A stretch of DNA of 64,000 nucleotides from Prevotella sp. (lineage in GTDB: Bacteria > Bacteroidota > Bacteroidia > Bacteroidales > Bacteroidaceae). The DNA is taken from positions 62,001 to 126,000 of the forward strand of contig JAFUTI010000023.1 in assembly GCA_017471465.1 (NCBI GenBank). Reading direction: 5' to 3'. A program made the position numbers and the translations under genes. The notes below the pieces were generated by a model. It did not search any database. It saw only the letters and a program-made list of their open reading frames with translations, and was not told where the DNA came from. Of this stretch, positions 6,458-48,202 are shown piece by piece. The number at the start of each line of letters is the position of its first letter. Within the stretch, counting starts at the first letter, position 1.

Positions 6458-6463
6458 CCGTTG

Positions 6464-7266: not shown

Positions 7267-7300
7267 ACTTCAAAATTACCTATTATTCCTTTCTCGTTGG

Positions 7301-7308: not shown

Positions 7309-7364
7309 TGAAATAAAAATTAAACAAACAAGAAATCAGGCGGATATTTTTGTGATTACTTTCA

Positions 7365-18828: not shown

Positions 18829-19070
18829 GTTGCCGACGTAGGTCAGCAGAAGAAGAACAATGAATAAAATTAATTATCCAGACCATTCACCACAACCTAC
18901 TGAACCACAGTAAGATAGGTTTACGGTGAAGGGTAAACGACAAAGCAAAATCATGGCTAATAACAATACTTCGCTCGATTTGCACCATCTTTGCATCAAG
19001 CATCCTTGCAGGCCATGGAGCCTTGTTACCACTTGATTTGAATCAATAAATTATGGGATTTTAACAATTA

Positions 19071-19100: not shown

Positions 19101-19118
19101 TTTTTTTTGTTAACTTTG
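19101..19118 (+). promoter_or_regulatory. Promoter region of fimbrial/giant-protein locus, with T8 run before the -7 box
   Basis: The -7 box is TAACTTTG at 19111-19118. Directly upstream, at 19101-19108, is a run of eight T, placed in the spacer where the distance to the -33 element is set. No exact TTTG -33 element is present at the standard distance. The ATG of the first gene follows 29 nt after the -7 box. Confidence 0.6.
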
Positions 19119-19147: not shown

Positions 19148-19807
19148 ATGTCAACAAAAAGGATAATATCAATCGAAAAGATCATTAACAAGTTTTTTGT
19201 TATGGCATCCTTGACACTCCTCCCGACAAGGATGGAAGCGCAAGATATTACCATTGGCAACAACCTGCTCTACGACGCTTCGCTGACGCCCAACCTGAAC
19301 ATCGCCTACAGCGACAGTTCTCGCTGGTCGTATGGCGTTACGCTGGGATTCCGCCATTGGCCCATTGGAAACCTGACGCAGAAGAAGTGGCGCCACTTGC
19401 TTATCTCTCCTGCCGTACGCTACTGGAACGACACCCAGCACTTAGGACATTTTTGGAGTGGCAACGCCATCTACAGCCATTTCAATGCAGGATACACTGA
19501 CATGCTCATCTACAAGGGCGTTAAGGACGAGCGCCGTCAGGGCGACCTCATTGCCCTCGGAGCGTCCTATGGTTATGCCTGGCATTTAGGACGCCGTTGG
19601 ACCGCAGAGGCTCAAGCAGGTCTTGCCGTAGGCTACGCCTGGTACGACCGCTTCGTCATTAACAGCCAGGAGGACGACTGGAACCCCATCGGCAGCGGGA
19701 AAAACGTTTTCCTACTGCCACAGCTAGGTCTGAACATCGTCTACCACATCCCGCTGAAGAAGTCAAAGGAACCTCAAAATAACGAAACAACAAGAAACAA
19801 CCAATAA
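19148..19807 (+). CDS. DUF3575 family outer-membrane protein
   Basis: A 219-residue exported protein. The N-terminus (MSTKRIISIEKIINKFFVMA..LTLLPTRMEAQ) is a slightly long signal peptide cut near EAQ; the internal ATG at 19202 is an alternative start. The mature part (DITIGNNLLYDASLTPNLNI, GVTLGFRHWPIGN, HFWSGNAIYSHFNAGYTD, AEAQAGLAVGYAWYDRF) alternates hydrophobic and polar residues and matches DUF3575, a small beta-barrel-like family commonly found at the head of Bacteroidota fimbrial operons. Its role in fimbria export or anchoring is suggested by context only. The next gene starts 10 nt after its stop. Confidence 0.85.
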   Translation: MSTKRIISIEKIINKFFVMASLTLLPTRMEAQDITIGNNLLYDASLTPNLNIAYSDSSRWSYGVTLGFRHWPIGNLTQKKWRHLLISPAVRYWNDTQHLGHFWSGNAIYSHFNAGYTDMLIYKGVKDERRQGDLIALGASYGYAWHLGRRWTAEAQAGLAVGYAWYDRFVINSQEDDWNPIGSGKNVFLLPQLGLNIVYHIPLKKSKEPQNNETTRNNQ

Positions 19808-19817
19808 AAACGTTTTC

Positions 19818-22001
19818 ATGATGAAACAGTTCTTCAATTTTGCCTTTCTGAGTGCGATAGCACTCTCAGGCACGTTCGGACTCACAGCCTGCTCGTCGTA
19901 CGACGAGGCAGAGGTGACCAATCCGAACTTCAACCCAGAGACCAACGAGGTGCTTACCAAGTTTGTCTTCAATGTGGCAACGGGCAACGAAGCCACCACA
20001 CGTCAGTCGTCTGCTGCTACGCAGGCTACAAACACTGAAACCTTCCGCGGTATTGACAATGCCGTGCTCTTCTCATTCAAACGAGCTGCCGGCGACGGCA
20101 AGCACCTTGCTGCCGCGGGCGCTGCCGACAAGCGTTTCGACTTGTCACGCATCGTTTCAGAAGGTTCCATCAACAAAGATGCGTCCAGCCGCGTCATCGA
20201 GACCTCACTGCCACTGAACACCAACTCGCTGCTGTTCTATGGCAAGGCCATCGAAGGGACTTCCTCGACAGCCGTTGCCGGCTACAACCTCTATGGACAT
20301 CTGGAGAATTTCAACATTGCAACTGATGAAACCGGCAAAGCCCTGAGCAACACGACCATTGAACTGGCTTCGCGCATCAACGGCAACCTGGAAAACTTCA
20401 GGAAAATTGAAGATTTGCTGGCAGGTTTGCTCACCTGCATCATGAACTCCAACCTCGCCGGCGACCATCATGATGCCGTCACTTTTAACAATGAGGACGT
20501 TGAGTATCCTGACAACATTTATTGGGCCACCTATGCCAATACCGACAAGAAAAGCCCTGTAACGACATCACACGATCTCTATGCCCTGGAAGTGAAGCTG
20601 GCTAACGTCTACAAGGAGATGACAACCATCCGCGACACTGAAGGTGAGCTGCGTGGTGGCTGTGCACACAACATCGTGCATACCATTCAGGCCATGTGGT
20701 CAGTCATCAACGAAGTGCGCTGCGCCACACCGTTCTGTAAGGAAGAGGCTGTCGCACAACAGCTGGCCAAGCGTATTCACAACCGCTTAGAAGAGTTCTT
20801 CAACGGTACCGTCCCCAGTACTGGTGCAGAAGTGACGAATGTCAGTTTTAAGACAACCAGCAGTATCATCGAGAAATTCGGACTTGACCCCAACTGGCCT
20901 ACTTCAGCCGACGCGAAGCCGACAGCCGATTACTTCTCTGCTATTTCAAATGTCAGCCTGGCACAATTCCCTGAGGAGCTGTATCATTTGCCCGCCGGTT
21001 CTACCCACTATCTGTTTAACAGCACCAAGAAACAGTTCTACTATGTGCAGAATTACAACACCAGTGCTGTGGGCGGTGGAAGCGGATTTACCGTTGAGAG
21101 CTACTACTATCCTGCAGAGCTCTGCTATTTCGGAAATAGTGCCATCCGAGTCTCCAACACCGAGCACAAGGTTGCCGACTATCCACAGACCGTGGCTACC
21201 TGGCACAGCAGCTCATGGAGTGGCTGGACTGCCAACAGTCACGTTGTATCAACGACCCAGTCCGTTGCCATGCAGAACGACATCAACTATGGTACCGCAC
21301 TGCTGAAGGCCACCATAGGCTATGGAGCCACGACGCTGAAGGACAACAACCACGCTATCCAGCAATACAAGGACAATAGCATCAGCGAAACCGATGAGCC
21401 AGACAAAGAGATTACCGTCACCGCCACCAGTTTCCAGCTGAAGGGCGTCCTCATCGGCGGACAGTCGAAAAAGGTGGGATGGGATTACCTGCCTAAAACC
21501 TCGGATAACTCGGTAGGTTATATCTATGACTGTTCCATCCCTAATGGAACTATTCCTGCTACAGGTGTATCGTCACCCAACTACACGCTGGTATTTGACA
21601 ACTACACCACAGCAGGCACAGGTCAGGACAAGGTATATGTCGCCCTGGAACTGCTGAACAACAGCGGAGAGGACTTCTATGGCGAGTACGGCCTGATTCG
21701 TAACGGTGGCACGTTCTACCTCATTGGCGAGCTCGATCCGGCAGGAAAGACCGCTCCCACCTTGCCTACCCACCACCCGTTGCCACCATACAACAGCGAC
21801 GGCTCTTCCGTTGAGACGGCCCGTGTCTTCATGCAGGACTACATGACCACTGCCAACTTCGTCATTGGCGTGAACTCGCTGAAACACGCCTACCTCACCG
21901 TTCCCGACCTGCGCTACAGCGCGCTGACATTGGGACTCTCTGTCGATATGGAGTGGTCGACTGGTATCGATTTCGGCAACGTCATCTTGGGAGGCAATTA
22001 A
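19818..22001 (+). CDS. Mfa1-family fimbrial major-subunit-like lipoprotein (727 aa)
   Basis: The lipoprotein signal MMKQFFNFAFLSAIALSGTF ends in LTAC. The C-terminal half carries the Mfa1 family pattern: YYYPAELCYFGNSAIRVSN, then WHSSSWSG, TTQSVAMQNDINYGTALL, FQLKGVLIGGQSKKVGWDY, VYVALELLNNSGEDFYG, GTFYLIGELDPAGKT and VFMQDYMTTANFVIG, ending in a basic-free beta strand (IDFGNVILGGN). In Porphyromonas gingivalis Mfa1 is exported as a lipoprotein, trimmed by an arginine-specific protease and polymerised by strand exchange; Arg residues near NEATTRQSS are candidates for trimming. At 727 residues it is longer than typical Mfa1 (~560), with extra sequence around 150-330. Confidence 0.82.
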   Translation: MMKQFFNFAFLSAIALSGTFGLTACSSYDEAEVTNPNFNPETNEVLTKFVFNVATGNEATTRQSSAATQATNTETFRGIDNAVLFSFKRAAGDGKHLAAAGAADKRFDLSRIVSEGSINKDASSRVIETSLPLNTNSLLFYGKAIEGTSSTAVAGYNLYGHLENFNIATDETGKALSNTTIELASRINGNLENFRKIEDLLAGLLTCIMNSNLAGDHHDAVTFNNEDVEYPDNIYWATYANTDKKSPVTTSHDLYALEVKLANVYKEMTTIRDTEGELRGGCAHNIVHTIQAMWSVINEVRCATPFCKEEAVAQQLAKRIHNRLEEFFNGTVPSTGAEVTNVSFKTTSSIIEKFGLDPNWPTSADAKPTADYFSAISNVSLAQFPEELYHLPAGSTHYLFNSTKKQFYYVQNYNTSAVGGGSGFTVESYYYPAELCYFGNSAIRVSNTEHKVADYPQTVATWHSSSWSGWTANSHVVSTTQSVAMQNDINYGTALLKATIGYGATTLKDNNHAIQQYKDNSISETDEPDKEITVTATSFQLKGVLIGGQSKKVGWDYLPKTSDNSVGYIYDCSIPNGTIPATGVSSPNYTLVFDNYTTAGTGQDKVYVALELLNNSGEDFYGEYGLIRNGGTFYLIGELDPAGKTAPTLPTHHPLPPYNSDGSSVETARVFMQDYMTTANFVIGVNSLKHAYLTVPDLRYSALTLGLSVDMEWSTGIDFGNVILGGN

Positions 22002-22006
22002 ACTCA

Positions 22007-23068
22007 ATGATGAGCAACAGCCGTCGTGACATCAAGAACATGATGCTGACAGCAATACTGGCAACGGTATTGTTGTCGGCTTGCTCGTTGATTGACGACG
22101 AGCTGGGCGGCAAGAAGACCGACTTCAAGCTGGACTATGAGTTGCGCTTGGTGACCAACATGACCACTGAGATCAGGACGCAGCTGTCGACCCAGATGGA
22201 AGTAGGGTTGGCTCATACCCTGCGCCAGCATCTCGGAGGCATATTCACAGACTACGCCCATGATGTCAACCTGTCGTTCTACGATACCACGGGTGACTCC
22301 CTGCGCCTGCAGCACGACCAGCATATCATGGATGCCAACCAGCAGAGCTATACGCTCTACTTGCCGATGCGTCAATATATGCATCTGGCTGTGGCCAATG
22401 TGGTGAACAACCCTGTAGTTAGCCTGACCAACGATGAGCGCTGCCATCTGTCACGCCTTGAACTGGCGGTCGGCAGTTCTCCTGCCGACACCATTGACTC
22501 GCATACTACGGGCCTGTTTACAGCCCGTCAGCCCGTGGAGGTGTTGGAGGGCGTCGACCAGACGTTTAATGTGCACCTCTATATGGCCAACTGCGCCGCA
22601 GCCCTGATCATTGATCCTCGCGGGCACGACATCAGCAGCCTCAAGGTGTACACCACAGGCTTTGCCTCACAGTTCAACATCTGCGACAGCAGCTATGTGT
22701 TTGCAGACCGTGATCCTGTCGTCAGGACAAAAATGGTGACCTCGCCGGATGACAACAAGGTTTGTTACTATTCGGTCAACCTACCCTCACGCGAACCTAT
22801 GTATACACGTAGCGTCATAGAAACGGAAGACTTTCTGGGTGAGCCAGGCCGCGAGGACCTTTGGTCGTTCAGTGCCGTCATGACCGATAATGAGGGCAAG
22901 ACAACAAAGACCGACCTCACTCTGAAAGAGCCACTCCGCGCAGGACAGCTGAAAATAGTCACGGGCTATGTGACCGATGATGGAGCCATAAAGACTGACG
23001 ACGTGACAGTAGGTGTCAGCGTGTCGCTCGACTGGCACAAGGGCGGCAGCTACGAGCCAGAACTATAG
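22007..23068 (+). CDS. FimB/Mfa2-like fimbrial anchor lipoprotein
   Basis: A 353-residue lipoprotein from MMSNSRRDIKNMMLTAILAT, with lipobox LLSAC. The first ATG at 22007 follows the previous stop by 5 nt. The N-terminal part (DFKLDYELRLVTNMTTEIRT, VNLSFYDTTGD) and the C-terminal LRAGQLKIVTGYVTDDGAIK, VGVSVSLDWHKGGSYEPEL are typical of the FimB/Mfa2 family, whose members cap or anchor the fimbrial shaft in the outer membrane and limit its length. Position directly after an Mfa1-like gene matches the mfa1-mfa2 order. Subunit pairing is inferred. Confidence 0.8.
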   Translation: MMSNSRRDIKNMMLTAILATVLLSACSLIDDELGGKKTDFKLDYELRLVTNMTTEIRTQLSTQMEVGLAHTLRQHLGGIFTDYAHDVNLSFYDTTGDSLRLQHDQHIMDANQQSYTLYLPMRQYMHLAVANVVNNPVVSLTNDERCHLSRLELAVGSSPADTIDSHTTGLFTARQPVEVLEGVDQTFNVHLYMANCAAALIIDPRGHDISSLKVYTTGFASQFNICDSSYVFADRDPVVRTKMVTSPDDNKVCYYSVNLPSREPMYTRSVIETEDFLGEPGREDLWSFSAVMTDNEGKTTKTDLTLKEPLRAGQLKIVTGYVTDDGAIKTDDVTVGVSVSLDWHKGGSYEPEL

Positions 23069-23092
23069 GAGATTAAAGATTAAAGATTGAGA

Positions 23093-24727
23093 ATGGTGAA
23101 CGTTCGGAACATTCTTTACTGCTTGATACTGTGCACGATGATGCTGTCGTGTATGGCAGCAGATGATGTGTCCGACGTTGATGGTGGTCTGGAGCAGTTG
23201 GACCTGGTGCTGAGTATCGGCAAGTCGAAGACAGTGACCCGTCAGGGCATTGACGTGATACAGGATGAAGGTCAGCCGTTCAGAGGCCTGCAAGGTCTGT
23301 TGGCCATCCCCTTCGCCACTGACGACAATCAGCCCGTGACGTCAGCCGACCTGCCACTGACCTCGGTCGTGTCTGGTAATCTGGCCAATAAGATAGAAGG
23401 AAGCTACTACTATTACATGGACAAGTGCTACATGATGCGAGGAACCAACCACGTATTGGTCTATGGCCAGTCTGCAACCATCAGTGGTAAGGAGTCGCCA
23501 GTCCAAAACGGCCAGCTGGAGACCACGCTGACAGGACGCATGAAGCCTTCTGACATCACGTTCAGTCTGCAGCCGATTCGCGACACCTATGACATTCATG
23601 AAGATGCACAGGCACTGGCCCAATACATGACGGATATTGCCAACACCCCAAACTGGAGTATGACCAGCGACGCGGGTCTAAAGGCACTCTATCTGGACTT
23701 CATTCACGCTGAATCGGAAGGTTCAGGACTGATGGCGGGTTCTGCAGCCCACGTCAAGGCCTATGTCAAGGCTCTTCGGGATCAGCTGAAAGATAATACT
23801 GACGAGCTCAGTCTTGCTATTGTTGCCAACATCGATGCTGCTGCGAAATCTTGTCTTGACAACGGCTATCCCTCGGCTTCGACTTCGTTGGGTCTGCCCG
23901 ACGGTGCTACTGCCCTGCGATGGACAGGCAGTGCCTTTACCGTGCGGACACAGGCTACCACCCTCGACAACATCAATGGTATTACCCGCTTTACCTACCC
24001 TGCCGAACTTTGGTACTATGCCAATAGTGGCATATATACTTCGAGAGAGGAGGTGTCTAAGACGACTTATACGGGTGACTGGAACACTTTGCTGACGACC
24101 CATTATCATGCAGGTCGTTCTGTCAGCAATGACACCAAGTCGGTGGCTGTCGGACAGCCGCTGCAATATGGTGTCGGTCGTCTGAAGATGACGCTGGGAA
24201 CCATTCCCGCAACAATGAAGGATTCGAAGAATCAAGATGTCTCTATTGTTTCTGTCGACAAAATGCCGATGACAGCCGTCATTATCGGAGGCCAGCATAC
24301 TGTTGGCTTCGACTTCAAGCCGATGGGTGAGCCCAGTGACGTCGATGCCCGTTTCATCTACGACCCCATTGTAGGAAACACAGGAACGGTGAACACGCTG
24401 GTGCTCCAGTCGTATGACGGAGAGAAGGTGCCTATCGTGCTGGAGTTTGAGAACAAGACGGGGCAGCAGTTCACTGGTAGGGACGGCATCATCTATCCTA
24501 ACACGAAGTTCTACCTCATCGCCCGGATTGACCCGGCAGACAAAGGTACCGGCGACTATGCCAATCGTGTGTTCACGCAAGACTATACCACAGCGATGAC
24601 GATGCAGGCAAACTCGCTGGCTAATGCATATTCGTGTATGCCCGACCTGCTGTCACCACGATTAGAAATCGGTGTGCAGGTAACAACGAAGTGGGTACAG
24701 TCGACGACAACTACAGTGATATTATAA
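23093..24727 (+). CDS. Second Mfa1-family fimbrial subunit lipoprotein (544 aa)
   Basis: Start MVNVRNILYCLILCTMMLSC at the ATG at 23093; a TTG six bases earlier extends the frame by two codons but is unnecessary. It shares with the 727-residue protein the segments YPAELWYYANSGIYTSREE, SVAVGQPLQYGVGRLKMTLG, MPMTAVIIGGQHTVGFDF, VPIVLEFENKTGQQFTGRDG, TKFYLIARIDPADKGTG and VFTQDYTTAMTMQANSLAN, so it is a paralogous shaft or accessory subunit. The spacer before it is AT-rich and includes a repeated GATTAAA. Whether both subunits enter one filament or are alternatives is not readable from sequence. Confidence 0.82.
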   Translation: MVNVRNILYCLILCTMMLSCMAADDVSDVDGGLEQLDLVLSIGKSKTVTRQGIDVIQDEGQPFRGLQGLLAIPFATDDNQPVTSADLPLTSVVSGNLANKIEGSYYYYMDKCYMMRGTNHVLVYGQSATISGKESPVQNGQLETTLTGRMKPSDITFSLQPIRDTYDIHEDAQALAQYMTDIANTPNWSMTSDAGLKALYLDFIHAESEGSGLMAGSAAHVKAYVKALRDQLKDNTDELSLAIVANIDAAAKSCLDNGYPSASTSLGLPDGATALRWTGSAFTVRTQATTLDNINGITRFTYPAELWYYANSGIYTSREEVSKTTYTGDWNTLLTTHYHAGRSVSNDTKSVAVGQPLQYGVGRLKMTLGTIPATMKDSKNQDVSIVSVDKMPMTAVIIGGQHTVGFDFKPMGEPSDVDARFIYDPIVGNTGTVNTLVLQSYDGEKVPIVLEFENKTGQQFTGRDGIIYPNTKFYLIARIDPADKGTGDYANRVFTQDYTTAMTMQANSLANAYSCMPDLLSPRLEIGVQVTTKWVQSTTTTVIL

Positions 24728-24746
24728 GAATTAAAGATATAGTGAG

Positions 24747-25841
24747 ATGCGTAAGGCACTGATATACATAATGAGCATGATGACGACGGCGCTGACAGCC
24801 TGCTACTCGTACGATGAGACGGGAGAGCCTGCACAGCAGAAGCCCGCCATGCTGACCATATATGTGTATTCGCCTGAGCATCCTGTGATAACCCGTTCCG
24901 ACGTCGGTCATGTCGACCCGCTGACGGACGAGAGCAAGGTGACGCTACTACAGATATGGATCTATGATACCAGCGGCAACAAGGTGGGGTATCTACGGAC
25001 TGAGGAAACCGCCACACTGAACGGTGGTGAGGGTGCCGTCTACCAGATTCCCGTACCAGATGACTTCGCACAGAACAAGCCCAATGTGGATGTCTATGTG
25101 CTGGCCAACATTACCTATAACAATACGTTTACAGAGGCCACCAGTCGTACTGACCTGTTGGATAATGCCAAGATTCCTACTGGCAGCTACGGACTGTCGG
25201 CTCTTACGACCGCTGTTCCTGATGAAGGACTGCCAATGGCTGGCGAGCTAAAGAACCAGCCTGTCATTGGCGATGCTCCGGTGTTGCGTATCGGAACTAC
25301 GAGCAATATTGCCACTGTACCCTTGACGCGTGCCGTATCGAAGCTGCGTTTTGCCTTTGCCAACACGGCAGGCTCCCCCACACTGAGCATCACGGATATC
25401 AAGCTAAACGCAGGAATGATTCCCAACGAGGAATACCTGTTCCCGCAAAATCAAGCGCTGACCTATAACAGCAGTGCCGCTACCTTGCTGTCAACAGCCA
25501 TTGACGCAGTGGCAGAAAAACAAAATCCTGCTGTATACGTTTACAATAATCAGACGGCACAGGAGTATGAGGACCTACTCAACAGTGCCGGTCTGACGCA
25601 AACCTGTATATACTATCTGCGTGAGTCGGGCAAACAGTTGGAAGGCACCATCAGCTATGAGGTGGATGGTGCGCCCCAACCTACAGCCACCTTTAAGATG
25701 AACCAGGCGGGCGACTTTCTGCGCAACCACTCGTGGATTGTCTATGCCTACTACGAGGGGCTCTCAGGCATGCAGGTCGTAACGGTTGACGTGACGCCTT
25801 GGGACGACGTCAGCCAGGGGCATACTGTATATAATTGGTGA
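24747..25841 (+). CDS. Fimbrial accessory/anchor lipoprotein (Mfa2/Mfa3-like)
   Basis: A 364-residue lipoprotein beginning MRKALIYIMSMMTTALTACY. A first domain (MLTIYVYSPEHPVITRS, VTLLQIWIYDTSGNKVGYL, VDVYVLANI) and a second (VPLTRAVSKLRFAFANTAG, LSITDIKLNAG) follow the two-domain layout of FimB/Mfa2 and tip-type fimbrial proteins, including the conserved RAVSK(L/I)-like segment. It ends QVVTVDVTPWDDVSQGHTVY. It lies 19 nt after the second Mfa1-like gene, so the locus alternates subunit, anchor, subunit, anchor. Exact role (tip or second anchor) is uncertain. Confidence 0.7.
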   Translation: MRKALIYIMSMMTTALTACYSYDETGEPAQQKPAMLTIYVYSPEHPVITRSDVGHVDPLTDESKVTLLQIWIYDTSGNKVGYLRTEETATLNGGEGAVYQIPVPDDFAQNKPNVDVYVLANITYNNTFTEATSRTDLLDNAKIPTGSYGLSALTTAVPDEGLPMAGELKNQPVIGDAPVLRIGTTSNIATVPLTRAVSKLRFAFANTAGSPTLSITDIKLNAGMIPNEEYLFPQNQALTYNSSAATLLSTAIDAVAEKQNPAVYVYNNQTAQEYEDLLNSAGLTQTCIYYLRESGKQLEGTISYEVDGAPQPTATFKMNQAGDFLRNHSWIVYAYYEGLSGMQVVTVDVTPWDDVSQGHTVYNW

Positions 25842-25854
25842 GATAGAATTGATA

Positions 25855-26877
25855 ATGATGAATAGAGAACGGACATACACGAAGCTGTTACGAACAGGAC
25901 TCTTTATGGTTTGGGGAGGCCTGCTTGCCGCTTGTTCTAACGACCTAAGCGAAGAACAGGCATCGGACAGCGCACTTGGTATGGTGTCGTTCACGCGTAG
26001 TGACAGCCCCTTCACCGTTACTGATGACTATTCTCCTGTCAATGTGTTTCTGGTGGAAAATGGGACAAGTGGAACAGAGACCCAGACGGGGCGCTTCTTC
26101 TATAGGCCCACCGAAACCATCTGGAAGTCCAGCATAGAAGTAACCCCCAATCGCAGCTATGCCATCTACGGCTACGCCCCAGCCAATGCTGCGACTGTTA
26201 CCATCTCAAGCCAATCGCTCTCAGGTGCGACACTCACCTTCAGCAATCTGCCTTCTGTCAACAGTCAGGACATTTGCTTCGTCGTTGGGGTGCAACAATT
26301 GAGCAACAAGTCAGATGCCAAGGATATTCCATTAGGACAGTTCAACTTTACGGGAAAATCTGAAAGCAACTATGTCAACCTGCTAATGGATCATGTCTAT
26401 GCCGGATTATGCATTCAGATGACAATAGACAGCGATTATGCCCTGCTACGTCATATCAAAGTCAGGAAGCTGGAACTACATAGCACGAAGTCAACGGCAC
26501 AGGCTGTCGTGACGTTGGCCTCTAACACGACGAAGACATCCCCCGTCCAGTCTGTCACCTATAGTGACGAATCGGGCGAAGAGCGGTCGGTCACCTTCTT
26601 TGAAAGTACTGACGGACAAGCACTTAATGCAGAAGAGCTCATAGAGGCCATATGCTGCTTTGTACCCAGTCTCAGCAATCAGCTGACGCTGGTCACCACT
26701 TATGATGTCTACGACAGATACGACAACAAAATCAGTGAGCGTACGGCAACGAACAAGTTACCCAACATGAACGCCTCCCGTGGCCAGCGCGTGAATCTCA
26801 ACCTAACCATTGCGCCGACCTACCTCTACGTGCTTTCAGACCCGGATTTGGACAATCCGACTGTGGTGTTGAATTAG
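25855..26877 (+). CDS. Fimbrillin-family lipoprotein
   Basis: A 340-residue lipoprotein from MMNRERTYTKLLRTGLFMVW with lipobox LLAAC. The sequence (MVSFTRSDSPFTVTDDYSPV, NRSYAIYGYAPANAATVT, ATLTFSNLPSVNSQDICF, YVNLLMDHVYAGLCIQMTID, RHIKVRKLELHSTKS) resembles the fimbrillin-like family of Bacteroidota, with a first domain ending before the LMDHVYAGL segment and a second beta domain. Its C-terminus (VLSDPDLDNPTVVLN) lacks a sorting domain. It precedes the giant protein gene by 25 nt. It could be a tip adaptor to which the giant protein docks, which is speculative. Confidence 0.65.
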   Translation: MMNRERTYTKLLRTGLFMVWGGLLAACSNDLSEEQASDSALGMVSFTRSDSPFTVTDDYSPVNVFLVENGTSGTETQTGRFFYRPTETIWKSSIEVTPNRSYAIYGYAPANAATVTISSQSLSGATLTFSNLPSVNSQDICFVVGVQQLSNKSDAKDIPLGQFNFTGKSESNYVNLLMDHVYAGLCIQMTIDSDYALLRHIKVRKLELHSTKSTAQAVVTLASNTTKTSPVQSVTYSDESGEERSVTFFESTDGQALNAEELIEAICCFVPSLSNQLTLVTTYDVYDRYDNKISERTATNKLPNMNASRGQRVNLNLTIAPTYLYVLSDPDLDNPTVVLN

Positions 26878-26902
26878 TTAAAAGATAGACAAGAGATAAG
26901 AA

Positions 26903-29900
26903 TTGAGAATAAAAACAACCATAACAAGTTTGATGATGCTTCTGACTGCGGTAGCAGTGCAGGCGCAGATAGTCATTGGCGGTAGTGTCTATGGCGGCGG
27001 CAATGCCGGCAATACAGGCGGAAGAACTACCGTCAGGGTGTGCGCCGGCGATCTTAACGCTGTCTTTGGCGGCGCCCGTATGGCCAATGTCGGCGGCAGT
27101 GCCTTCGTTAACATCGACGGCAAACATGCTTCCGACAACATCCTTATTAACAAGGTATATGGCGGTAACGACATTGCCGGAACCATCGGCACATCAACAA
27201 AAGCTCCCACAGAACTGGAAGACACAACAGAGAACAACATCCACTACACTTGGAATGCATTTGTACGCGTCTCTACAAAGATGAAAACGACGGGTACAGG
27301 TAATGAAGCCGTTGTGGAGCCAGACCCAGATGCGAAAATCTTCATCGGCCAGCTCTATGGCGGCGGCAATGGAGATTATGACTATACTTCAACGGCTTAT
27401 TCAGGCCTGAACAGTCCTGTCTTGGCAAAGACCTATCTGGAAATCAAAGGCGGTACGACAGCCTACGTCTATGGCGGCGGTAATGCTGCGACAGTGACGA
27501 ACAACACCACCATCTATATCAACAACCCCAGCAACGTAGTGACGAGTATCAACGATGCTGGCGGAACGGACATCCTGGCAGACCCTGATGGTACCCGTTT
27601 GATTGCGATGGGTCTGAATACGACGCAGACACACGCCAGCAGCGCGGATTTCCAGTTTGCCCGTGTCTTCGGCGGAAACAACAAGGCCGATATGGCTATT
27701 CGCCCCAAGTGGAACCTGAAGCGCGGTGCTATCCGTGACCTCTACTCTGGTGGTAACGAGGGGCGCATGACCAGTCCAGAAGGTCTGCTTCTTCAGATTG
27801 AAAGCTCCGGGATGACAGTCGACAATGTCTATGGCGGCTGCCGTAAGGCCGATGTGCGTCCGCTATACAACAACAATGACGAGACCCCTGTACCCAATGA
27901 CGAAATCAAACTGGACCCGAGCAACAACCCCAATAACATTCCCGGTGGCTACGCTGCCCGTGTAAGAGTGCTGGACGGTCACGTCAACAATGTCTATGGT
28001 GGCAACGACATCTCAGGAAATGTCTATGGTGGCAACACTGTGGGTATCTTTACTCACATCTACGGCAACATCTATGGTGGTGGCAACGGTTCGTATGCAT
28101 ATACTGACAATACGCAACTAAAGGATGACCCCAAATGGCGTGACTTCTACTATGACCCCGAAAAGATACTGCAAGAGGAAGGGGTAACAGATGTTGCTGA
28201 TAAGCTAAAGTCGGCTACAGCCCTCAACCTCTTCCGCCCCAATGCCGAGAAAGTGTCTATTCTTGTCAGGGGTACTGCAGAAAAGCCTGTTACCGTTGAC
28301 GGCGCCTTTTATGTGGGTGGCAATAGTGCCTCGCTGCGAGATCAGACCACAACCAGAAGCGGCAACAGCCGCCAGACCCACATCAAAATCGGTTCCTATG
28401 TGACCATCGACAATGTGTTTCTCGGCAACAACGGCGAGAACATGATTAATTCCGATGAGGCCAATGTCTCCTTAGGTAAAAGTGAAGGCGTGCTGCGTAC
28501 ATTGGCTAGTACCACTCTTACTTCCGATGAGTCCAAATTCAACTCTATGGTTTTGACGGACAAAGACGTCTTTGCCAAATATATGGAAGGGTGTGCAATG
28601 AAGGTAAAGCCCACCGTAGTATTTGAGAGCATAAAGAATGGTGACAATTCTGATTACATACCCTACTCTACTAAATTTGGCTCGTTCTTCTGTGGTGGCA
28701 ATGTAGGTAGCATCTTAGTAGATGGAAAGATTACTGTCGATTTCGAGGATAAAGTGATTATCTACGACAAAGTGGTGGGGGGCTGCAATAATGCCAATGT
28801 TTATAAGACTGACTATAATGCCGAATACCTGGGCGGTATGTTAGGTGATCCGGATCCTGTGCCTGTGGGTTCTCCAGAAGGAGCCATCGGTGACAAGCTG
28901 GAACTGAACTTCTCAGGTTTGAAGATTCAGCCCATGCGTTGGAAAGATGAAAATGACAAGTCGAAAGGCTTGGAATGGAACACCTGGATTGGTGACGCAA
29001 AGGATAACATTGACCTTGCTACGGCATCTACAGGCGAAACCAATAACCCCAACGATTTGAATCGCCGTTTCAAGGGTGGCAACATCTATGGTGGCTGCTA
29101 CAATAACGGTCATGTGAATGGTAACGTAGTCATCAACTTGAATGCGTCGATAGTAGACCGTAAAGGTGAGTATGCCGTCTTCGATCAGGTGGAACAGAAT
29201 GAGGGTGAGGCCATCCTCTATGGCAACAACAGCTACAACATCACCGAACGTCGCTCGGGCGTCATCCTCGACGAGCAGGGTATGGATCCGTTAGGCAAGG
29301 CGTTGAACGTATTTGGTGGCGGCTATGGTGGCGATTCCGAAATCTGGGGTAGCACTACGATTAACCTGAATGCCGGCTATACCTTCCAGATATTCGGTGG
29401 CGGTGAGCAGGGTGCTATTGGCAAGGCTGTCAGTCACGCTCCAAACGCTACAGATCCGACTATTCGTGACTTGACTTATGAACCCAATGAGGCATATAGC
29501 ACCTATATCAACCTGAAAGGAAACGATGAAGGCGTCTACCGCGGACATGCCGACGACAATACCGATATGGCCGAGGCAGAGTTCATCTATGGCGGTGCCT
29601 TCGAAGGACTGATTGCAGGCAGCACCCATATCAACCTGGGCAACGGACGTATCTTCAACAGCTTTGCCGGCTCGTGTAACGCAGACATCTTAGGACATAC
29701 CGAGACATACGTGGGCCGTCAGAAGGTGATTGCTGCCGACGGCACCTTTACATACGTCGACGGTGGCGGTTTCCCCTATATCCGTGACCACATCTATGGC
29801 GGCAACGACCTCGGCGGAAACATCATAGGTACTACGGATTTCACAGACCGTGTTGACAACGACGTAAAAGACAAGGTGCATAGTTCCAATGTCACCAACG

Positions 29901-38461: not shown

Positions 38462-38468
38462 AACAGTG

Positions 38469-38489
38469 CCCAGCGGTTCACCCGCTGGG
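38469..38489 (+). other. GC-rich hairpin between giant gene and MBG gene
   Basis: CCCAGCGG pairs with CCGCTGGG around TTCAC, 8 nt after the stop codon. No T-run follows, so it may act as an attenuating or mRNA-protecting hairpin rather than a full terminator. The 3' gene lies only 45 nt from the stop. Confidence 0.5.
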
Positions 38490-38506
38490 ATAAATAAAGA
38501 AACAAT

Positions 38507-41275: not shown

Positions 41276-41278
41276 GAC

Positions 41279-44200
41279 ATGAAGCATACGATAAGATTCA
41301 TCATCCTGATATTTGCAATCGTGATAGCCGGGGCAGGCAATGCCTGGGCTATCTCTGAAAGTGACATTATTATCAATGTACAGCCTAATAAAGATGTTGG
41401 TACGGTAACTGTAACTGATATTAGCGGAATGACTGTCACTATTTTGGCATCCCCTGCGACAGGCTATTCTATCGATGCAAATCATATCCTTGCAGAGAAG
41501 ATGGTGGATCCTATGGCTGCAGCTCGCCGTGCCTCTGGTTTTGCCTCTTCCCTATCCATCACTTCTAATGGTGCCAATTCTTTCTCTTTTACTATTCCAG
41601 AGGGCTATTCAGGGGCTTATGTCACAGTAAATTTCTTTAAACCATCAGTGGGCTTCACTCAAATTACTTCTCTATCCGAAATAACTGATATGAATGGCAG
41701 TTACCAATTAACGGCAGATGTAACAGGCGTCAGTATCAGTTTAGGAGTATTTACAGGAACGTTGGATGGTAACCTCCATAAGATTTATAGCCTTGGCGTA
41801 CCCTTGTTCAGCAGTGTGAACGGGGGTACGGTGAAGAATATCATCTTTGAAGATGTGAACATCAGTAACGGTGATTCTGATGGAGATGCGGGTGCGGTCT
41901 GTTCAAAAGCCACAGGTGATGCCCGTATCTACAACTGCGGTATCAATCCTTCCTCTGCCGATTATGACAATAACGGCAATATCACAGGATTTACAGGCAG
42001 TTCTGTCAGTGGCTCTCGTTATGTCGGTAGTTTGGTGGGGTTCCTTGATGGTTCAGCTCGTGTCATCAACTGTTATAGCTATGCCAACATCTCAGGCGGC
42101 ACCCATAATGCAGGTATTGTGGGCTATAACAATGTGGGCACAACGTCTGCCAACCTTAAGACCATGGTAATGAACTGTATGTTCTATGGTAATATTTCAG
42201 GCGGTTCCATAGCTCCTATCTATAACGGGGAGATTATCACGAATGTTAGTACTGGTTCAGGAGCAAACAACAAAGGTGTAAGCAACTATAACTATTTCTG
42301 GGCTGGTGCTTCATACGTAGAAGAAAAAGATATTGATGTGTATAACTGTGCCCTTACAGCAGAGACGCGCTATCTGCAACGTTTCGAATTCTTCCGCCAC
42401 CTGCTAAACGGTCATCGCGAGTTGGCTGCTTGGTGGGCAACGGGTGATATGGATAACAAAGCTCAGATGATGAAGTGGGTGTTGGAACCCAGCCAGATCG
42501 GCAGTAATGTTCCGTTCCCAATCCTAAAAACTCCAGGCTATTATCCATCGGTAGTAAATATCGATGCAGAAAACGCCACCATACAAACAGAGCGAAATAA
42601 GGGTGGTAAGTTGGGAACACTGACGGTGAACATTCAAATGGGTGATGGGGAGGTGTATAATCATCCCGGCACAGGTGATAACGAGGCAAAAATCACCACC
42701 ACGCAACTTACCCTTAATATCACCGACAAAGACCCCGATCATTTCAATTTCAACTATTACAAGGTACAGTTGCCTTATTATAATGACGTAGGCACAAAGA
42801 ATTATACAGGGAATCGTGTGGTGACGGGTTGGAAGATTGTCAGCATGAGTAAGTCTGCAGGAAGCTTTGATGATAGTTCTGATAACGCATCAGCGGATGT
42901 TAATGCAGATGGGGATATCACACTCACGACCCCATACAACTTTGCTGACCGTAACTGTACACAGAAAGATCTGTACAGCGTAAGTGGCCGTATATTCTCG
43001 CAGGGGGCATATTTTGACGTTCCGGAAGGTGTGACCGCCATTACGATTGAGCCCTACTGGGCTAACGCAGTGTTCGTTGCGGACGCATCACCTGATGTGG
43101 TATATAATACAGATATGAGTACCGCTTATTCTGTGCCAAACGTTGGTGGGAGAATCTACACAGATAATACTGCTTATACCTTCACTGATGTAGACGAAAA
43201 TGAGTTCTCGCTGACAGTTCGTAACAGTATGAATAATGCCAATGGCGCTTCGCGATCCGATGGTACTGTTTATGACAATGCCGTCGTGCTTGTGGGTAAT
43301 GTCCATAGTTTGAGTAATTTTAATAATGCTAAGCATTATACCATCATGTCGGTCGATTTCGACCATGATAATGAGCCGGATTATTCGTATATCCTGCGTT
43401 TTAATGGTCGTGTTCGTGAGCATCCTGTAAGAGTGGACTTTATCAATATCCCGGGTCTTGGTATGGCTCAGAAATCCACAGGTGGTAAAGGTACCTACAA
43501 TTTTGGTATTATGCAGCCAAAAGGATGGCTTGAGGCTACTAATACAGCTCTATTCCGTGTCACTCAGTTTGAGTATGACATGGCAGACAGAACAATGAGT
43601 CCAATCATCTTACATGGCGGTGTCATTGAACAGTGGGTAACATATGCACAAAATGGTAGCGAAGCTAATGCTGTGCAGTATTATCATGTGGGAGGCAATG
43701 TCTGGTTCAAGGAATTTCATATTGGGCAGCACCAGGATAGGACTGAAGCCAACGCTTACTCACCACATCCTCCAATATCTGTGACTGGAGGCGATTATGA
43801 CGAGTTCTACCTTACAGGCCTCTATAATACGCCTACGAATAATTATGATGACAATGCCGAGTGTTATATCAATGGTGGACGCTTTGGCAAGGTGGCAGGA
43901 ACAGGTATGCAGGGTATAGGCGATAAAACCAACCATACCAATGGTAATATTATCTGGCAGATAGACAATGCCGACATCGATGAGTTCTACGCCGGTGGCA
44001 TCAATGCAGCCCATATTGCCGAGGGCAACATTTACACCGTCATCACGAACAGTCGTGTTGACCAGTTCTGTGGCGGTCCCAAGTTCGGTGACATGAACAG
44101 TGGTAAGAAAGTGGTCACCAATGCCACCAACTGCACATTCCGTACCTTCTTTGGTGCTGGATATGGCGGTAACTCCTATAACCGCAGGTATCCTAAAAAT

Positions 44201-47200
44201 AAAACTAGTATAATAAATCTAGAGAATCCTACTTGGGATTCTTGGCTTCAAAATGGAGGTGACGGATTCGGAGGCTATAAGAATGCGTATAATAGTACTT
44301 ATGGTGGTGTCGAGACACGAATTGACTACCAGTTCCTCCCTATGTCTGACAATAAAACCAACGTGGCCCGTCTGTTCGTCGACTATGTGAGTTTCTCACT
44401 GGCCACCACTCGTGATGTCACATCAAAGCTCACGGGTTGCACCATTACTAAAAGCAAGCTTGGAACCCTCGACCTTTTCGACGGATGTATTGGCAACTTC
44501 TATGGTGGCGGTAGTCTCGGAAAGGTGGACGGTCCTGCCAAGTCAACGCTCACCAACTGCACCATAGAAGGCAATGTGTTCGGTGCGGGTTACTCAGCAA
44601 CATTGCCCCCAGTTAGCGTGATGGCCAATAGTTTCCAGACTGAGCCATATTATGATGAAAACCTTGGAGCCTATATGGAGGCCGTACTACCTGCAACAAC
44701 TCCCTACACATGGGCACACCGTGATGTGGTCAACTCTACAGCAACAGCCATTAACACAACTGACCATATTCTTTATACCACTAAGAACCTTGATGAACTT
44801 GGTACCGTTACTGGCGATATTTCTCTCACCATTGACGGAGCAACCACCGTTGCAGGAAGCGTTTATGGTGGTGGTGAGGAATCGGCGGTTAACGGCAGCA
44901 CCGCCGTAAATGTCAACAGCGGCACCGTCGGTACTACTGGTCAGAGCGGAGCCTCGAATGGTAGTGTCTTTGGCGGCGGTAATCTGGGTGTAGTTAATGG
45001 GAGCACTGAAGTCAACATCAGTGGTGGCTCTGTAAACTATAGCGTCTTCGGTGGTGGTTGCCTGGCTGATGTGCTGGGCAACACCAATGTGACGATGACG
45101 GACGGTTATGTCTTTAACGGTATTTTTGGCGGTGGTTATTCCGGTTCAGTAGGAACATTCACAAGGTCGACGAATACAGATGACGTAACAGTCTTTGGCC
45201 ATGTCCCTCATGAAGGCTGTATTGGCAGACCTATGTCGTGTGCAGCAAATACTGGTAAATGTACGGTGGTTGTTACTGGCGGTCAGGTAGGTCCCATTGA
45301 GGTAGCCACTGAGGGTATGACAAGGCGTGCCACGGTAGATGGTCCTCTCGATCCTGTTGAGGAAGGTTGGATATGGGGCGGAGGTCGAGGCTTGGTGCAG
45401 GATCCTGCGACTCACCCGGATATGCACTTTACGGCTTACGTTAATGAAACCGACGTGACCATCGGTGGCGATGCCTTCATTCTAGAGTCCATTATTGGCG
45501 GTGGTGAGTTTGGACGTGTGCTTGGCGACACACATGTAACGATTCAGGACCACTGTCAGATAGGTGTAGGATATCAACAGACAGAGGGTGGTAAGCCTAA
45601 GCGTTATACTGATGAACAGTTCGTCGACCCATCCACGACAACGATAACCGATACCAATGCTCTGGCCGAGTGCTCGCATTTCCCCTATGGATATGATTCT
45701 GATGGAGACAATAAGCCTGATAAATACTTGTCTTACGACCAGTACTACGATAAGTATTATGGTAATAGTGAAAATGTTCCTGCAGAATATGCCCTTGGCA
45801 GCTCTTCGCATCCTTCTGACGGTAAGACATGGATTGGTCTAGTGTTTGGCGGCGGTTCCGGCTACATGCCTTGCGAGAAAGAGGATGGTTCGGGCTACGG
45901 ATGGGGTCTTTCTGCCGGCTGGGTGGGAGGTAACACCAATGTGACTATCACTGGCGGTCATATTCTGACCAATGTTTATGGTGCTAATGAATATACCAAC
46001 GTCGAGGGTAAGAGTACGGTGAAGATGTCTGGCGGAACGATTGGCGTGCCGCGTACCCTGGCACAAATTCAGGCCAATCCATTGAATGGCAACCTGTTTG
46101 GTGCAGGTAAGGGCGACCCGCGTACCCACTTCAACAAAATGACCAATGTGGGAAGCACGGAAGTGGAGGTAACAGGTGGTATCATCTACGGCTCCGTCTA
46201 TGGCGGTGGTGAGGATGGTCACGTGTTAGGCAATGCCGTGACAACCATCGGAAAGGAAACGGCAACTGCTGGAGTAACGACAAAGACGGGACCTGTGATT
46301 GGCTGTGACGGCAGAGCCGGCAACAATGGCAATGTGTTCGGTGGCGGACAAGGTGCTACTACTGCACTGACGGCTGGTGTGGTCGGTGGCAATATTACCG
46401 TGAACATTCTTGGAGGTACTATCAATGGCTCCGTCTATGGTGGAGGAGAATTAGCCTCGGTGGGTACCCACTTTGCGATGACCACAGAAACTGGTTACGG
46501 TACGATGCAGGAAGGCACTAATCACGGATACATCGATGTTAATCTGACAGGGGGCACTATTGAGCAAAACGCCTACGGCGGTTGCATGGGTACCATAGAG
46601 AATGACCTACTGGGTATCTCGAAGAATGTCACTGTAGAGCTAAACAAGAACGTAAATGACGCTGTTCAGGGCTGTGCTGTAGTTGGCAGCATCTTTGGTT
46701 GCAATAATGTGAACAGCTCACCAGAGGGTACTGTCACCGTGCATGTCTATGGCACACAGCATAAAGGGAAATCGCAGATTGCCAACACAAGCGGCGAGAA
46801 CTCGGTGACAGATGCCAAGAAAAAGAATGACTATGACGTGAAAGCTGTTTATGGCGGCGGTAACATGGCTGCATACATGCCGACGGACTTGACGAACGGT
46901 ACGACCAATGTCATCATCGACGGCTGTGGGCGTACGAGCATCCAGCAGGTGTATGGTGGTGGCAATGCCGCCTCCACACCGGCAACAAGTCTGACCATTA
47001 ACGGTACGTTTGAGATTGAAGAAGTCTTTGGCGGTGGCAATGGTAAAGAAGATGTTGTTAAGGACGGTGTTACAAAACCAAACCCCGGTGCCAACATTGG
47101 CTACAAGGATTACTCTGAATACTACCAAGAAGACAATGTCTGGAAAGTCAGGGATAAGGCTGATGCCGACACGAAAGAGGAGCGTCTGGCAAGTGGTTAT

Positions 47201-48202
47201 CGCTATGGCACGGGTAAGGCATCCGTGAATATCTTCGGTGGTACGGTTCACCATGTGTTTGGCGGTTCCAACACGAAGGGTAATGTGCGTCAGACCGCTG
47301 TCACGATGCTTGAGGAAGCAGGAGGTTGCGACTTCTGTGTCGACGAGGCCTACGGTGGCGGCAAGAGTGCACCGATGGATGCTGAGGCAAAGCTGCTGAT
47401 GGCCTGTATCCCAGGATTAAGTGATGCCTACGGTGGTGCCGAGGCTGCCGACATTCAGGGCGATGTGACGCTTAACATCACCAACGGCACGTTCGACCGT
47501 GTGTTTGGCGGTAACAACAAGAGTGGTACAATCCATGGCTCCATCACGGTGAACGTCGAGGAGGTGGGATGTAAGCCCATCATGATTGGTGAACTTTATG
47601 GTGGCGGCAATCTGGCAGGCTATTCCGTCTATGGATACAACGACGACGGGAGTCTGAAAGAGTCGGGCACTACCCCACTCTATGACGACCCTCAGGTCAA
47701 CGTCAAGTCGTTTACCAGCATCGGCACCATCTACGGCGGCGGCTACGGCGCAGGTGCCACGATGGTGGGTAATCCGACGGTCAACGTCAATGTGGCCTAC
47801 GGCAGATATTACGATGATAACAAGTCCGTTATCAGTAAGGACTCGACAACAACCAACAATTATCCTATCCCCTCGCATGCCAAAGGAAAGATTGGAGCTA
47901 TCAGCAACGTCTTTGGCGGAGGCAACGCAGCCAAGGTTATCGGAAATACCAATGTCAATATCGGTACGCTGACTGAGGTCTATGTCGTAAAGGAGCTTAC
48001 AGCAGGTGACGCTGTGACAGGCTACTACACCCGAATCGGGAATACCTATACTGAAGCCACAGGTACCGCTAAGGAGGGGACCACCTATTACGAAAAGAAA
48101 GCCGTCCAGGGTGCCGACATCCGTCACAATGTCTATGGCGGTGGCAACAACGCCGAGGTGACAGGAAATACGAACGTGAATATCGGAAAACGCGACGAAT
48201 AA
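41279..48202 (+). CDS. Second giant surface protein (2307 aa) with GLUG-like N-terminus and ~31 YGGG motifs
   Basis: Signal peptide MKHTIRFIILIFAIVIAGAG..AWA. Residues ~128-341 are GLUG-like (FTGTLDGNLHKIYSLGVPLF, VGSLVGFLDGSARVINCYSY, HNAGIVGYNNVG). A middle region to ~860 is unassigned. From ~861 to the end about 31 motifs such as SVYGGGEESAV, SVFGGGNLGVV, EEVFGGGNGKED and TIYGGGYGAGA alternate with V-x-V-x-(V/I) strands and GNTNVNI-type turns. The domain order is the reverse of the 3852-residue protein (GLUG part first). It ends NVYGGGNNAEVTGNTNVNIG then KRDE, in the middle of a repeat, without a C-terminal sorting domain. It may be truncated or exported differently. Only 29 nt separate it from buk. 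Confidence 0.78.
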   Translation: MKHTIRFIILIFAIVIAGAGNAWAISESDIIINVQPNKDVGTVTVTDISGMTVTILASPATGYSIDANHILAEKMVDPMAAARRASGFASSLSITSNGANSFSFTIPEGYSGAYVTVNFFKPSVGFTQITSLSEITDMNGSYQLTADVTGVSISLGVFTGTLDGNLHKIYSLGVPLFSSVNGGTVKNIIFEDVNISNGDSDGDAGAVCSKATGDARIYNCGINPSSADYDNNGNITGFTGSSVSGSRYVGSLVGFLDGSARVINCYSYANISGGTHNAGIVGYNNVGTTSANLKTMVMNCMFYGNISGGSIAPIYNGEIITNVSTGSGANNKGVSNYNYFWAGASYVEEKDIDVYNCALTAETRYLQRFEFFRHLLNGHRELAAWWATGDMDNKAQMMKWVLEPSQIGSNVPFPILKTPGYYPSVVNIDAENATIQTERNKGGKLGTLTVNIQMGDGEVYNHPGTGDNEAKITTTQLTLNITDKDPDHFNFNYYKVQLPYYNDVGTKNYTGNRVVTGWKIVSMSKSAGSFDDSSDNASADVNADGDITLTTPYNFADRNCTQKDLYSVSGRIFSQGAYFDVPEGVTAITIEPYWANAVFVADASPDVVYNTDMSTAYSVPNVGGRIYTDNTAYTFTDVDENEFSLTVRNSMNNANGASRSDGTVYDNAVVLVGNVHSLSNFNNAKHYTIMSVDFDHDNEPDYSYILRFNGRVREHPVRVDFINIPGLGMAQKSTGGKGTYNFGIMQPKGWLEATNTALFRVTQFEYDMADRTMSPIILHGGVIEQWVTYAQNGSEANAVQYYHVGGNVWFKEFHIGQHQDRTEANAYSPHPPISVTGGDYDEFYLTGLYNTPTNNYDDNAECYINGGRFGKVAGTGMQGIGDKTNHTNGNIIWQIDNADIDEFYAGGINAAHIAEGNIYTVITNSRVDQFCGGPKFGDMNSGKKVVTNATNCTFRTFFGAGYGGNSYNRRYPKNKTSIINLENPTWDSWLQNGGDGFGGYKNAYNSTYGGVETRIDYQFLPMSDNKTNVARLFVDYVSFSLATTRDVTSKLTGCTITKSKLGTLDLFDGCIGNFYGGGSLGKVDGPAKSTLTNCTIEGNVFGAGYSATLPPVSVMANSFQTEPYYDENLGAYMEAVLPATTPYTWAHRDVVNSTATAINTTDHILYTTKNLDELGTVTGDISLTIDGATTVAGSVYGGGEESAVNGSTAVNVNSGTVGTTGQSGASNGSVFGGGNLGVVNGSTEVNISGGSVNYSVFGGGCLADVLGNTNVTMTDGYVFNGIFGGGYSGSVGTFTRSTNTDDVTVFGHVPHEGCIGRPMSCAANTGKCTVVVTGGQVGPIEVATEGMTRRATVDGPLDPVEEGWIWGGGRGLVQDPATHPDMHFTAYVNETDVTIGGDAFILESIIGGGEFGRVLGDTHVTIQDHCQIGVGYQQTEGGKPKRYTDEQFVDPSTTTITDTNALAECSHFPYGYDSDGDNKPDKYLSYDQYYDKYYGNSENVPAEYALGSSSHPSDGKTWIGLVFGGGSGYMPCEKEDGSGYGWGLSAGWVGGNTNVTITGGHILTNVYGANEYTNVEGKSTVKMSGGTIGVPRTLAQIQANPLNGNLFGAGKGDPRTHFNKMTNVGSTEVEVTGGIIYGSVYGGGEDGHVLGNAVTTIGKETATAGVTTKTGPVIGCDGRAGNNGNVFGGGQGATTALTAGVVGGNITVNILGGTINGSVYGGGELASVGTHFAMTTETGYGTMQEGTNHGYIDVNLTGGTIEQNAYGGCMGTIENDLLGISKNVTVELNKNVNDAVQGCAVVGSIFGCNNVNSSPEGTVTVHVYGTQHKGKSQIANTSGENSVTDAKKKNDYDVKAVYGGGNMAAYMPTDLTNGTTNVIIDGCGRTSIQQVYGGGNAASTPATSLTINGTFEIEEVFGGGNGKEDVVKDGVTKPNPGANIGYKDYSEYYQEDNVWKVRDKADADTKEERLASGYRYGTGKASVNIFGGTVHHVFGGSNTKGNVRQTAVTMLEEAGGCDFCVDEAYGGGKSAPMDAEAKLLMACIPGLSDAYGGAEAADIQGDVTLNITNGTFDRVFGGNNKSGTIHGSITVNVEEVGCKPIMIGELYGGGNLAGYSVYGYNDDGSLKESGTTPLYDDPQVNVKSFTSIGTIYGGGYGAGATMVGNPTVNVNVAYGRYYDDNKSVISKDSTTTNNYPIPSHAKGKIGAISNVFGGGNAAKVIGNTNVNIGTLTEVYVVKELTAGDAVTGYYTRIGNTYTEATGTAKEGTTYYEKKAVQGADIRHNVYGGGNNAEVTGNTNVNIGKRDE

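Follow-up and report, generated by a model that had tools for sequence, protein, structure and literature searches.

Operon structure and gene content

The window, the whole stretch of DNA analyzed here, comprises 64,000 nucleotides (nt) of a Prevotella sp. genome (GenBank assembly GCA_017471465.1, contig JAFUTI010000023.1, positions 62,001 to 126,000) that is 2.4 Mb in size and 63% complete. Positions 19148 to 48202 of the window hold nine open reading frames (ORFs), g1 to g9, all on the + strand, in which genes for pilin-like lipoproteins are followed by genes for three large proteins. The set resembles a fimbria known from an oral bacterium, though on an unusually large scale, and Prevotella-related rumen bacteria appear to share it as a conserved gene set building a pilus plus giant secreted proteins. 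The strongest new result is the constancy of the g6-g7 unit, whose members are coupled more tightly to each other than g7 is to the stalk pilins.

An earlier note, made from the sequence alone, had described nine same-strand genes with gaps of 3 to 45 nt and final proteins of 3852, 922, and 2307 residues, and all of this is confirmed. From g1 to g9 the intergenic gaps are 10, 8, 18, 19, 7, 25, 45, and 3 nt, taking 22010 as the start of g3 (the mechanical ORF begins at 21953 and overlaps g2). A butyrate kinase gene starts 8 nt downstream of g9. The genes, with two C-terminal features referred to below, are as follows (T9SS, type IX secretion system; aa, amino acids).

19148-19807, + strand: g1, DUF3575 protein, 219 aa (ORF, Pfam)
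19818-22001, + strand: g2, lipoprotein, 727 aa, same family as g4 (alignment)
22010-23068, + strand: g3, Mfa2-family anchor-type lipoprotein (Pfam)
23087-24727, + strand: g4, lipoprotein pilin, 546 aa, predicted type V pilin fold with a helical insert (model, Foldseek)
24747-25841, + strand: g5, FimA/Mfa1/FimD-like lipoprotein (Pfam/NCBIfam, alignment)
25849-26877, + strand: g6, fimbrillin-like lipoprotein, candidate adaptor for g7, with the conserved C terminus PTYLYVLSDPDLDNP (alignments, profiles)
26903-38461, + strand: g7, 3852-aa giant with a signal peptide (by eye), YGGG-type motifs, a non-repeat half, and a T9SS-type tail
38276-38458, + strand: T9SS type A-like sorting domain of g7, residues 3792-3852 (22.3 to 22.6 bits, cutoff 23)
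38507-41275, + strand: g8, 922-aa MBG/YDG/Fn3-associated protein, optional operon member (Pfam, related loci)
41279-48202, + strand: g9, 2307-aa YGGG-motif protein with an M26_N-like N-terminal part and without a T9SS tail
48113-48190, + strand: conserved C-terminal repeat of g9 (ADIRxNVYGGGNNAEVTGNTNVNIGK)

The g6-g7 pair in related genomes

A scan of genome contigs based on g7 yielded 64 related loci, 59 of which have DNA upstream of g7. Since these loci were drawn by peptide patterns from g7, close relatives are favored among them; their records are titled Prevotella, Xylanibacter, Prevotellaceae, Bacteroidaceae, or Bacteroidales, and many are ruminant gut metagenome-assembled genomes by title. 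By the earlier note, its reading would be refuted if homologous giant genes lay mostly outside fimbrial operons, and this is not the case: g6 lies immediately 5' of g7 on the same strand in 57 of the 59 loci (55 by ORF calling, plus two by profile, L069 and L092, in which an ORF on the other strand had masked g6). The gap between the two genes has a median of 16 nt and is at most 60 nt in 52 of 55 loci. L096 has g6 near g7 with small ORFs in between, and L091 is the sole locus of the 59 with no g6 within 4 kb upstream of g7. At least two of g1 to g5 are found upstream in 52 of the 59 loci. Among the 57 loci having a downstream gene, 53 carry g9 and 22 carry g8; those without g9 are L068, L076, and L085, where the sequence ends soon after, and L053, where other genes occupy the place.

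The window gene order recurs, with g8 absent, in the cultured Xylanibacter brevis ATCC 19188 (L087) and, minus g8 and with one additional gene before g9, in Prevotella sp. tc2-28 (L062). An assembly chimera can thus be ruled out as the source of the order, because these isolate-type strains keep it. The slot between g7 and g8 or g9, empty in the window (45 nt), is variable in relatives, where it may hold cytoplasmic-type genes (RhuM, AAA-ATPase/PDDEXK, YhcG-type nuclease, HATPase) or, by eye, a transposase-like gene; examples are L050:21823-23145, L062:21651-22553, L042:13080-14306, L056:6818-7966, and L095:23430-24077. AAA-ATPase-like genes (by eye) also occur amid the pilin genes at L076:4053-5633, L078:84-3308 and 5941-7500, and L080:5963-7546. 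In L053, positions 21911-28562, the expected place of g9, encode an M64-peptidase/dockerin protein and a C10 peptidase with inhibitor and dockerin domains.

We also searched 100 genomes of the genus, a set that probably overlaps with that of the locus scan and is not independent of it. Matches were called strong at E < 1e-70 for g6, E < 1e-100 for g7, and E <= 1e-10 for pilins; at most 20 candidates per genome were scored for g6 (alignment A1) and at most 12 for g2/g4 (alignment A2), so that absences are not firm. Both g6 and g7 gave strong matches in 21 genomes, in every case on one contig, while 1 genome had g6 only (G121, with g6 near a contig end), 1 had g7 only (G008), and 77 had neither. 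At E <= 1e-3, g6 matches rise from 22 to 33 genomes among the scored candidates and g7 matches from 22 to 25, of which G001, G094, and G095 drop out at the stricter threshold. The g2/g4-type pilins follow g7 less closely, being found in 24 genomes (15 with g7, 9 pilin only), with g7 only in another 7. Fisher tests on such co-occurrence ignore shared ancestry.

In nine cases the g6-g7 pair is kept while the genes before g6 match no g2-g5 profile (L069, L076, L078, L080, L090, L096, G310, G392, and G307). About 10 kb of upstream sequence is visible in the L loci, except for L096 with about 4 kb only. The lone upstream pilin-like gene of L096 weakly matches the g6 profile (E 0.00026); with its short upstream sequence, this locus lends weak support to pilin exchange. 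Outside the genus, 4 of the 294 other Bacteroidales genomes examined carry g9-type repeats, with g6 and g7 adjacent in all four; the genome of the window is a fifth positive. G310 and G392 are members of family f111 and G307 of family f108, neither being that of the window. The gene sets of G310 and G307 both start with genes for DUF3575 and DUF5119 proteins, the DUF5119 match of G310 falling under the cutoff.

A second set of giants, of 5019 to 6301 aa and with ends that by eye resemble a T9SS C-terminal domain (CTD), was seen in G095 C11/C34 (L135-L138), G001 C20 (L139-L140), and G008 C8 (L141-L142), and some of its members adjoin fimbrillin-like genes. The G095 giants (5019 and 6301 aa) have a g6 relative directly upstream, and a 5804-aa giant of G008 C8 has a g6 relative on its downstream side.

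Pilin-like lipoproteins

The gene profiles applied above to loci with other pilins, and the counts of conserved residues given below for g2 to g6, draw on at most the first 45 sequences per gene. Of the family assignments proposed in the earlier note, DUF3575 is clear for g1 (E 1.5e-37) and Mfa2 holds for g3 (29.5 bits against a Pfam cutoff of 21.2), while g5 exceeds its Pfam cutoffs narrowly (FimA, 23.6 against 21.4 bits; Mfa2, 22 against 21.2 bits) and falls under those of NCBIfam FimD and Mfa1. Window g2, g4, and g6 have no Pfam match over the cutoff and no NCBIfam match. The first two align as one family, with relatives 21 to 60% identical to g4, and neither 28 family members compared with Pfam (best E 0.0066, not convincing) nor the family profile compared with Protein Data Bank (PDB) sequences (none at E <= 1) yielded a relative; alignment A2 comprises window g2 and g4 plus 26 of 118 complete g2/g4 sequences, hand-picked for spread. 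Given this lack of a family-profile match, the "Mfa1-like" label of g2 and g4 rests on fold.

The only pilin modeled, g4, has a predicted type V pilin fold (AlphaFold2; predicted local distance difference test score [pLDDT], 83.7). A Foldseek search of the PDB with this model gave 19 hits at E <= 1e-3, of which 17 are Bacteroidales/Porphyromonas fimbrial or "putative adhesion" proteins, FimA and Mfa3 included, and 2 are Cpa (4bug). The template modeling (TM) scores of the 17 hits are 0.20 to 0.31 of the query, so that the likeness to type V pilins is one of superfamily, and the model has a large helical insert formed by four helices near residues 172-256.

A cysteine stands at the lipobox position in nearly all aligned sequences (g2, 41/42; g3, 45/45; g4, 44/45; g5, 44/45; g6, 45/45), and an arginine is kept at the expected maturation position in g2 (42/42, Arg62), g4 (41/45), and g5 (45/45). 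A TR site 12 to 48 residues past the lipid cysteine is found in 31/41 g2, 33/44 g4, 29/44 g5, and 24/45 g6 sequences and in 0/45 g3 sequences. These patterns point to stalk pilins with an arginine maturation site, where cleavage is predicted, and to a g3 anchor without TR. In Porphyromonas gingivalis, Rgp is reported to cleave Mfa1, Mfa3, and Mfa4 (PMC5954841). The C-terminal residues of g5 are NW in 45/45 aligned sequences. As for g1, the window copy consists of DUF3575 alone, whereas 27 of 37 complete relatives are 421 to 561 aa long; the one relative tested, from L046, shows weak OmpA and TPR matches after DUF3575.

For g6, described earlier as fimbrillin-like, the window copy lacks a family match, but 6 of 28 aligned g6 sequences match the fimbrillin-like family PF13149 at E <= 0.1 (alignment A1, the window plus 27 of 56 g6 sequences, hand-picked for spread). 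Its relatives are 26 to 55% identical to the window copy and most conserved at the C terminus, and the g6 profile has no match among PDB sequences at E <= 1.

The giant proteins g7, g8, and g9

The short glycine motif that two of the giants had been said to share is confirmed in g7 and g9, g8 not being of the YGGG type. Counted as [YF][GA]G[GNSC] against 200 shuffles, it occurs 29 times in g7 (shuffle mean 1.9, maximum 8), mainly in residues 30-1820, 22 times in g9 (mean 1.8, maximum 7), and once in g8 (mean 0.4). Self-BLAST of g7 and g9 returned the full-length match only. The g7 protein is conserved throughout, the share of the commonest residue per 50-residue block averaging 0.41 to 0.86 over 41 sequences (the window plus the first 40 long g7 sequences).

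Export of g7 by the T9SS is suggested by its tail. TIGR04183, named as the type A sorting signal (PMC10202324), is matched by 56 of 58 g7 C termini at E <= 0.01; alignment A5 holds the window plus 57 of 59 tails, omitting L043 and L075 as near-duplicates of L042 and L049. SprA, the sole T9SS component searched, is over the cutoff in 95 of the 100 genus genomes and in that of the window.

The g8 protein carries MBG, YDG, and Fn3-associated domains (Pfam). Its tails are CTD-like by eye, though 0 of 19 match the NCBIfam sorting domain at E <= 0.01 (alignment A6, the window plus 18 of 21 tails; L043, L076, and L082 omitted). The C terminus of window g9 likewise has no NCBIfam match and no T9SS tail. 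Of 16 complete g9 ends, 15 carry the C-terminal repeat motif, the exception being L083, and g9 of G310, G392, G307, and G210 ends in a like repeat. Over 14 other sequences the g9 end is 60 to 73% identical to the window, compared with 26 to 55% for g6 and 21 to 60% for g2/g4 (alignment A4, the window plus 14 of 16 ends; L075 and L083 omitted). It is modeled as all-beta (pLDDT 85.6); structure matches reach a best E of 1.5 in the PDB and 0.25 among viral models, none being significant, and its profile has no match among PDB sequences at E <= 1. The "solenoid arms" imagined earlier are compatible with the predicted all-beta repeats but find no significant solved relative.

Transcription of the operon

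The pattern TAnnTTTG is described as the -7 promoter element of Bacteroides (PMC4747536). Two features bear on transcription of the operon.

19111-19118, + strand: TAnnTTTG, Bacteroides-type -7 element, 37 nt upstream of the g1 ATG
38469-38489, no strand assigned: hairpin with an 8-pair stem between g7 and g8, terminator-like on the - strand only

Within 200 nt before g2 to g10 of the window, no TAnnTTTG was found. In related loci, scanned from -150 to +60 of each start (background 0.05 per 210 nt), the element lies near g1 in 35 of 37, as opposed to 6/43 for g2, 5/49 for g3, 5/58 for g4, 2/46 for g5, and 2/56 for g6. Separate promoters for the giants, named in the earlier note as a sign against one assembly, find hardly any -7 element near the starts (g7, 4/59, all within the called frame; g8, 1/22; g9, 0/53); a match inside g8, taken up below, points the other way. 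Sigma-70 and terminator scans stayed at shuffle level. For the full pattern TTTG-N18-23-TAnnTTTG, the window contains 10 matches against 0.5 expected. Taken together, the sequence data favor one main promoter, upstream of g1, and suggest that g1 to g9 may form one transcript.

At 18807-18848, about 300 nt upstream of g1, a 22-bp palindrome occurs in one perfect and one imperfect copy. The idea that this palindrome is common to relatives is unsupported, as at least two copies of the core occur in no scanned locus.

Comparison with known surface systems

In P. gingivalis, Mfa3 is reported to bind Mfa1, Mfa4, and Mfa5, linking Mfa5, a T9SS substrate, to the stalk (PMC5954841, PMC7835359). The Mfa1 fimbriae (mfa1-mfa5) resemble the present system in their lipoprotein type V pilins, Mfa2-type anchor, and arginine at the maturation-site position, and Mfa5 resembles g7 as a large protein with a T9SS tail encoded after the pilins. 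Here, in contrast, three large proteins take the place of one, those of 3852 and 2307 aa carry YGGG motifs, a DUF3575 gene comes first, and g7 has no von Willebrand domain match. The parallel to Mfa5 and the T9SS drawn in the earlier note fits g7 by its tail, but finds no such support in g8 or g9. Without a von Willebrand factor A domain, g7 may work like Mfa5 but is not classed as Mfa5. The g4 model also matches FimA and gut Bacteroidales type V pilins (4gpv, 3sy6, 6jzk, and 5nf4) in Foldseek, from which g2 and g4 differ in lacking Pfam or NCBIfam matches over the cutoff, in the low TM scores, and in the helical insert.

The gliding adhesins SprB and RemA of Flavobacterium are large T9SS-dependent surface proteins. 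RemA is reported to have a type A CTD (PMC10202324), whereas the g7 tail profile gives only a weak RemA match (E 0.31) and the g7 gene sits in a pilus operon. Among the papers listed in searches of the open-access literature of PubMed Central, none describes such an operon in its title or abstract, which is not proof of absence.

A proposed pilus carrying giant exoproteins

The reading that we consider moderately probable is a type V pilus whose adaptor g6 carries the T9SS-exported giant g7 in an Mfa3/Mfa5-like mode. A single operon, driven mainly from the promoter before g1, would encode a FimA/Mfa-type pilus plus giant accessory exoproteins. The g2, g4, and g5 products would be surface lipoproteins, cleaved after the conserved arginine and polymerized by strand exchange, with g3 as the uncleaved anchor, g1 as an outer-membrane helper, and g6 as an adaptor pilin. 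Having left the cell by the T9SS via its CTD, g7 would be captured by g6 at the pilus, as modeled on the capture of Mfa5 through Mfa3 in P. gingivalis, and g9, plus g8 where present, would extend the surface complex as long all-beta repeat proteins. That g6 binds g7, that g9 has any role, that adhesion is the function, and that pilus and giants physically assemble together is what we infer.

Several observations weigh against this reading. As to transcription, the full -33/-7 pattern has no match before window g1, a TTG lies 17 to 25 nt from the -7 element in only 14 of 37 g1 regions, and a full TTTG-TAnnTTTG match within g8 (39874-39905, + strand), 1.4 kb upstream of g9, is a possible internal g9 promoter. 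In P. gingivalis, mfa5 is reportedly transcribed independently of mfa1-4 (PMC5954841), whereas no promoter of its own is seen near g7. In G307 (L161-L163), g9 lies on the opposite strand, beside the g1 end of the operon. As to maturation, 29 of 45 g3 anchors carry a looser [TSVIL]R, which makes the contrast with the anchor dependent on the strict TR motif; the TR site is present in only 24 of 45 g6 sequences, and no arginine in the N-terminal region of g6 is kept in 60% of the aligned sequences. As to g7, its window tail scores 22.6 bits, 0.4 under the curated cutoff of 23, and no Pfam family matches the protein at E <= 1, von Willebrand domains included. As to pilin exchange, one replaced G310 pilin still aligns with the g4 family in BLAST over a short stretch (E 1.8e-5, 82 aa). 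Finally, one lineage (G008, L091) has g7 and g9 but no g6 in the 4 kb upstream, and a distant g7-like giant in G001 has no g6 relative in the 40 kb examined, which indicates that giants can exist without g6 pairing.

The cases of G008 and L091 also bear on a rather unlikely alternative, in which the giants are independent T9SS surface adhesins on the outer membrane and the operon does no more than co-express two adhesin types that serve the same niche. T9SS effectors can reportedly be anchored at the cell surface (PMC10202324), and the long non-repeat half of g7 could hold binding sites of its own; co-expression, however, leaves unexplained why g6, more than the stalk pilins, accompanies g7. 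That constancy would also suit a g6 acting outside the filament, as a surface lipoprotein dedicated to receiving or chaperoning g7, since g6 is retained while pilins change, is most conserved at its C terminus, and has a weak TR site. We consider this improbable, given the fimbrillin-like family match of 6 of the 28 aligned g6 sequences and the presence upstream of at least two of g1 to g5 in 52 of 59 loci. A loosely grouped set of surface genes that share no function could account for the presence of g8 in only 22 of 57 loci and for the unrelated cytoplasmic-type genes between g7 and g9 in some, but it is hardly credible in view of the order, strand, and spacing kept across many species and in genomes of two other families, and of the -7 element at g1.

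An extension of the adaptor reading is possible, though we regard it as doubtful when taken as a whole: g6-g7 could be a portable docking module joining T9SS giants to any pilin set, and the C-terminal YGGG repeat of g9 a sorting or docking signal unlike known T9SS tails. Pili would then bear arms of about 6000 residues of beta repeats.

If a type V pilus does carry g7 through g6, the principle of Mfa5, in which a type V pilus bears a T9SS protein, would extend from one oral pathogen to a common gut and rumen Bacteroidales system, one with giant cargo and exchangeable stalks. The system would offer a test of how export of pilins as lipoproteins and export by the T9SS converge on a single structure, with the small adaptor g6 named as the first candidate.

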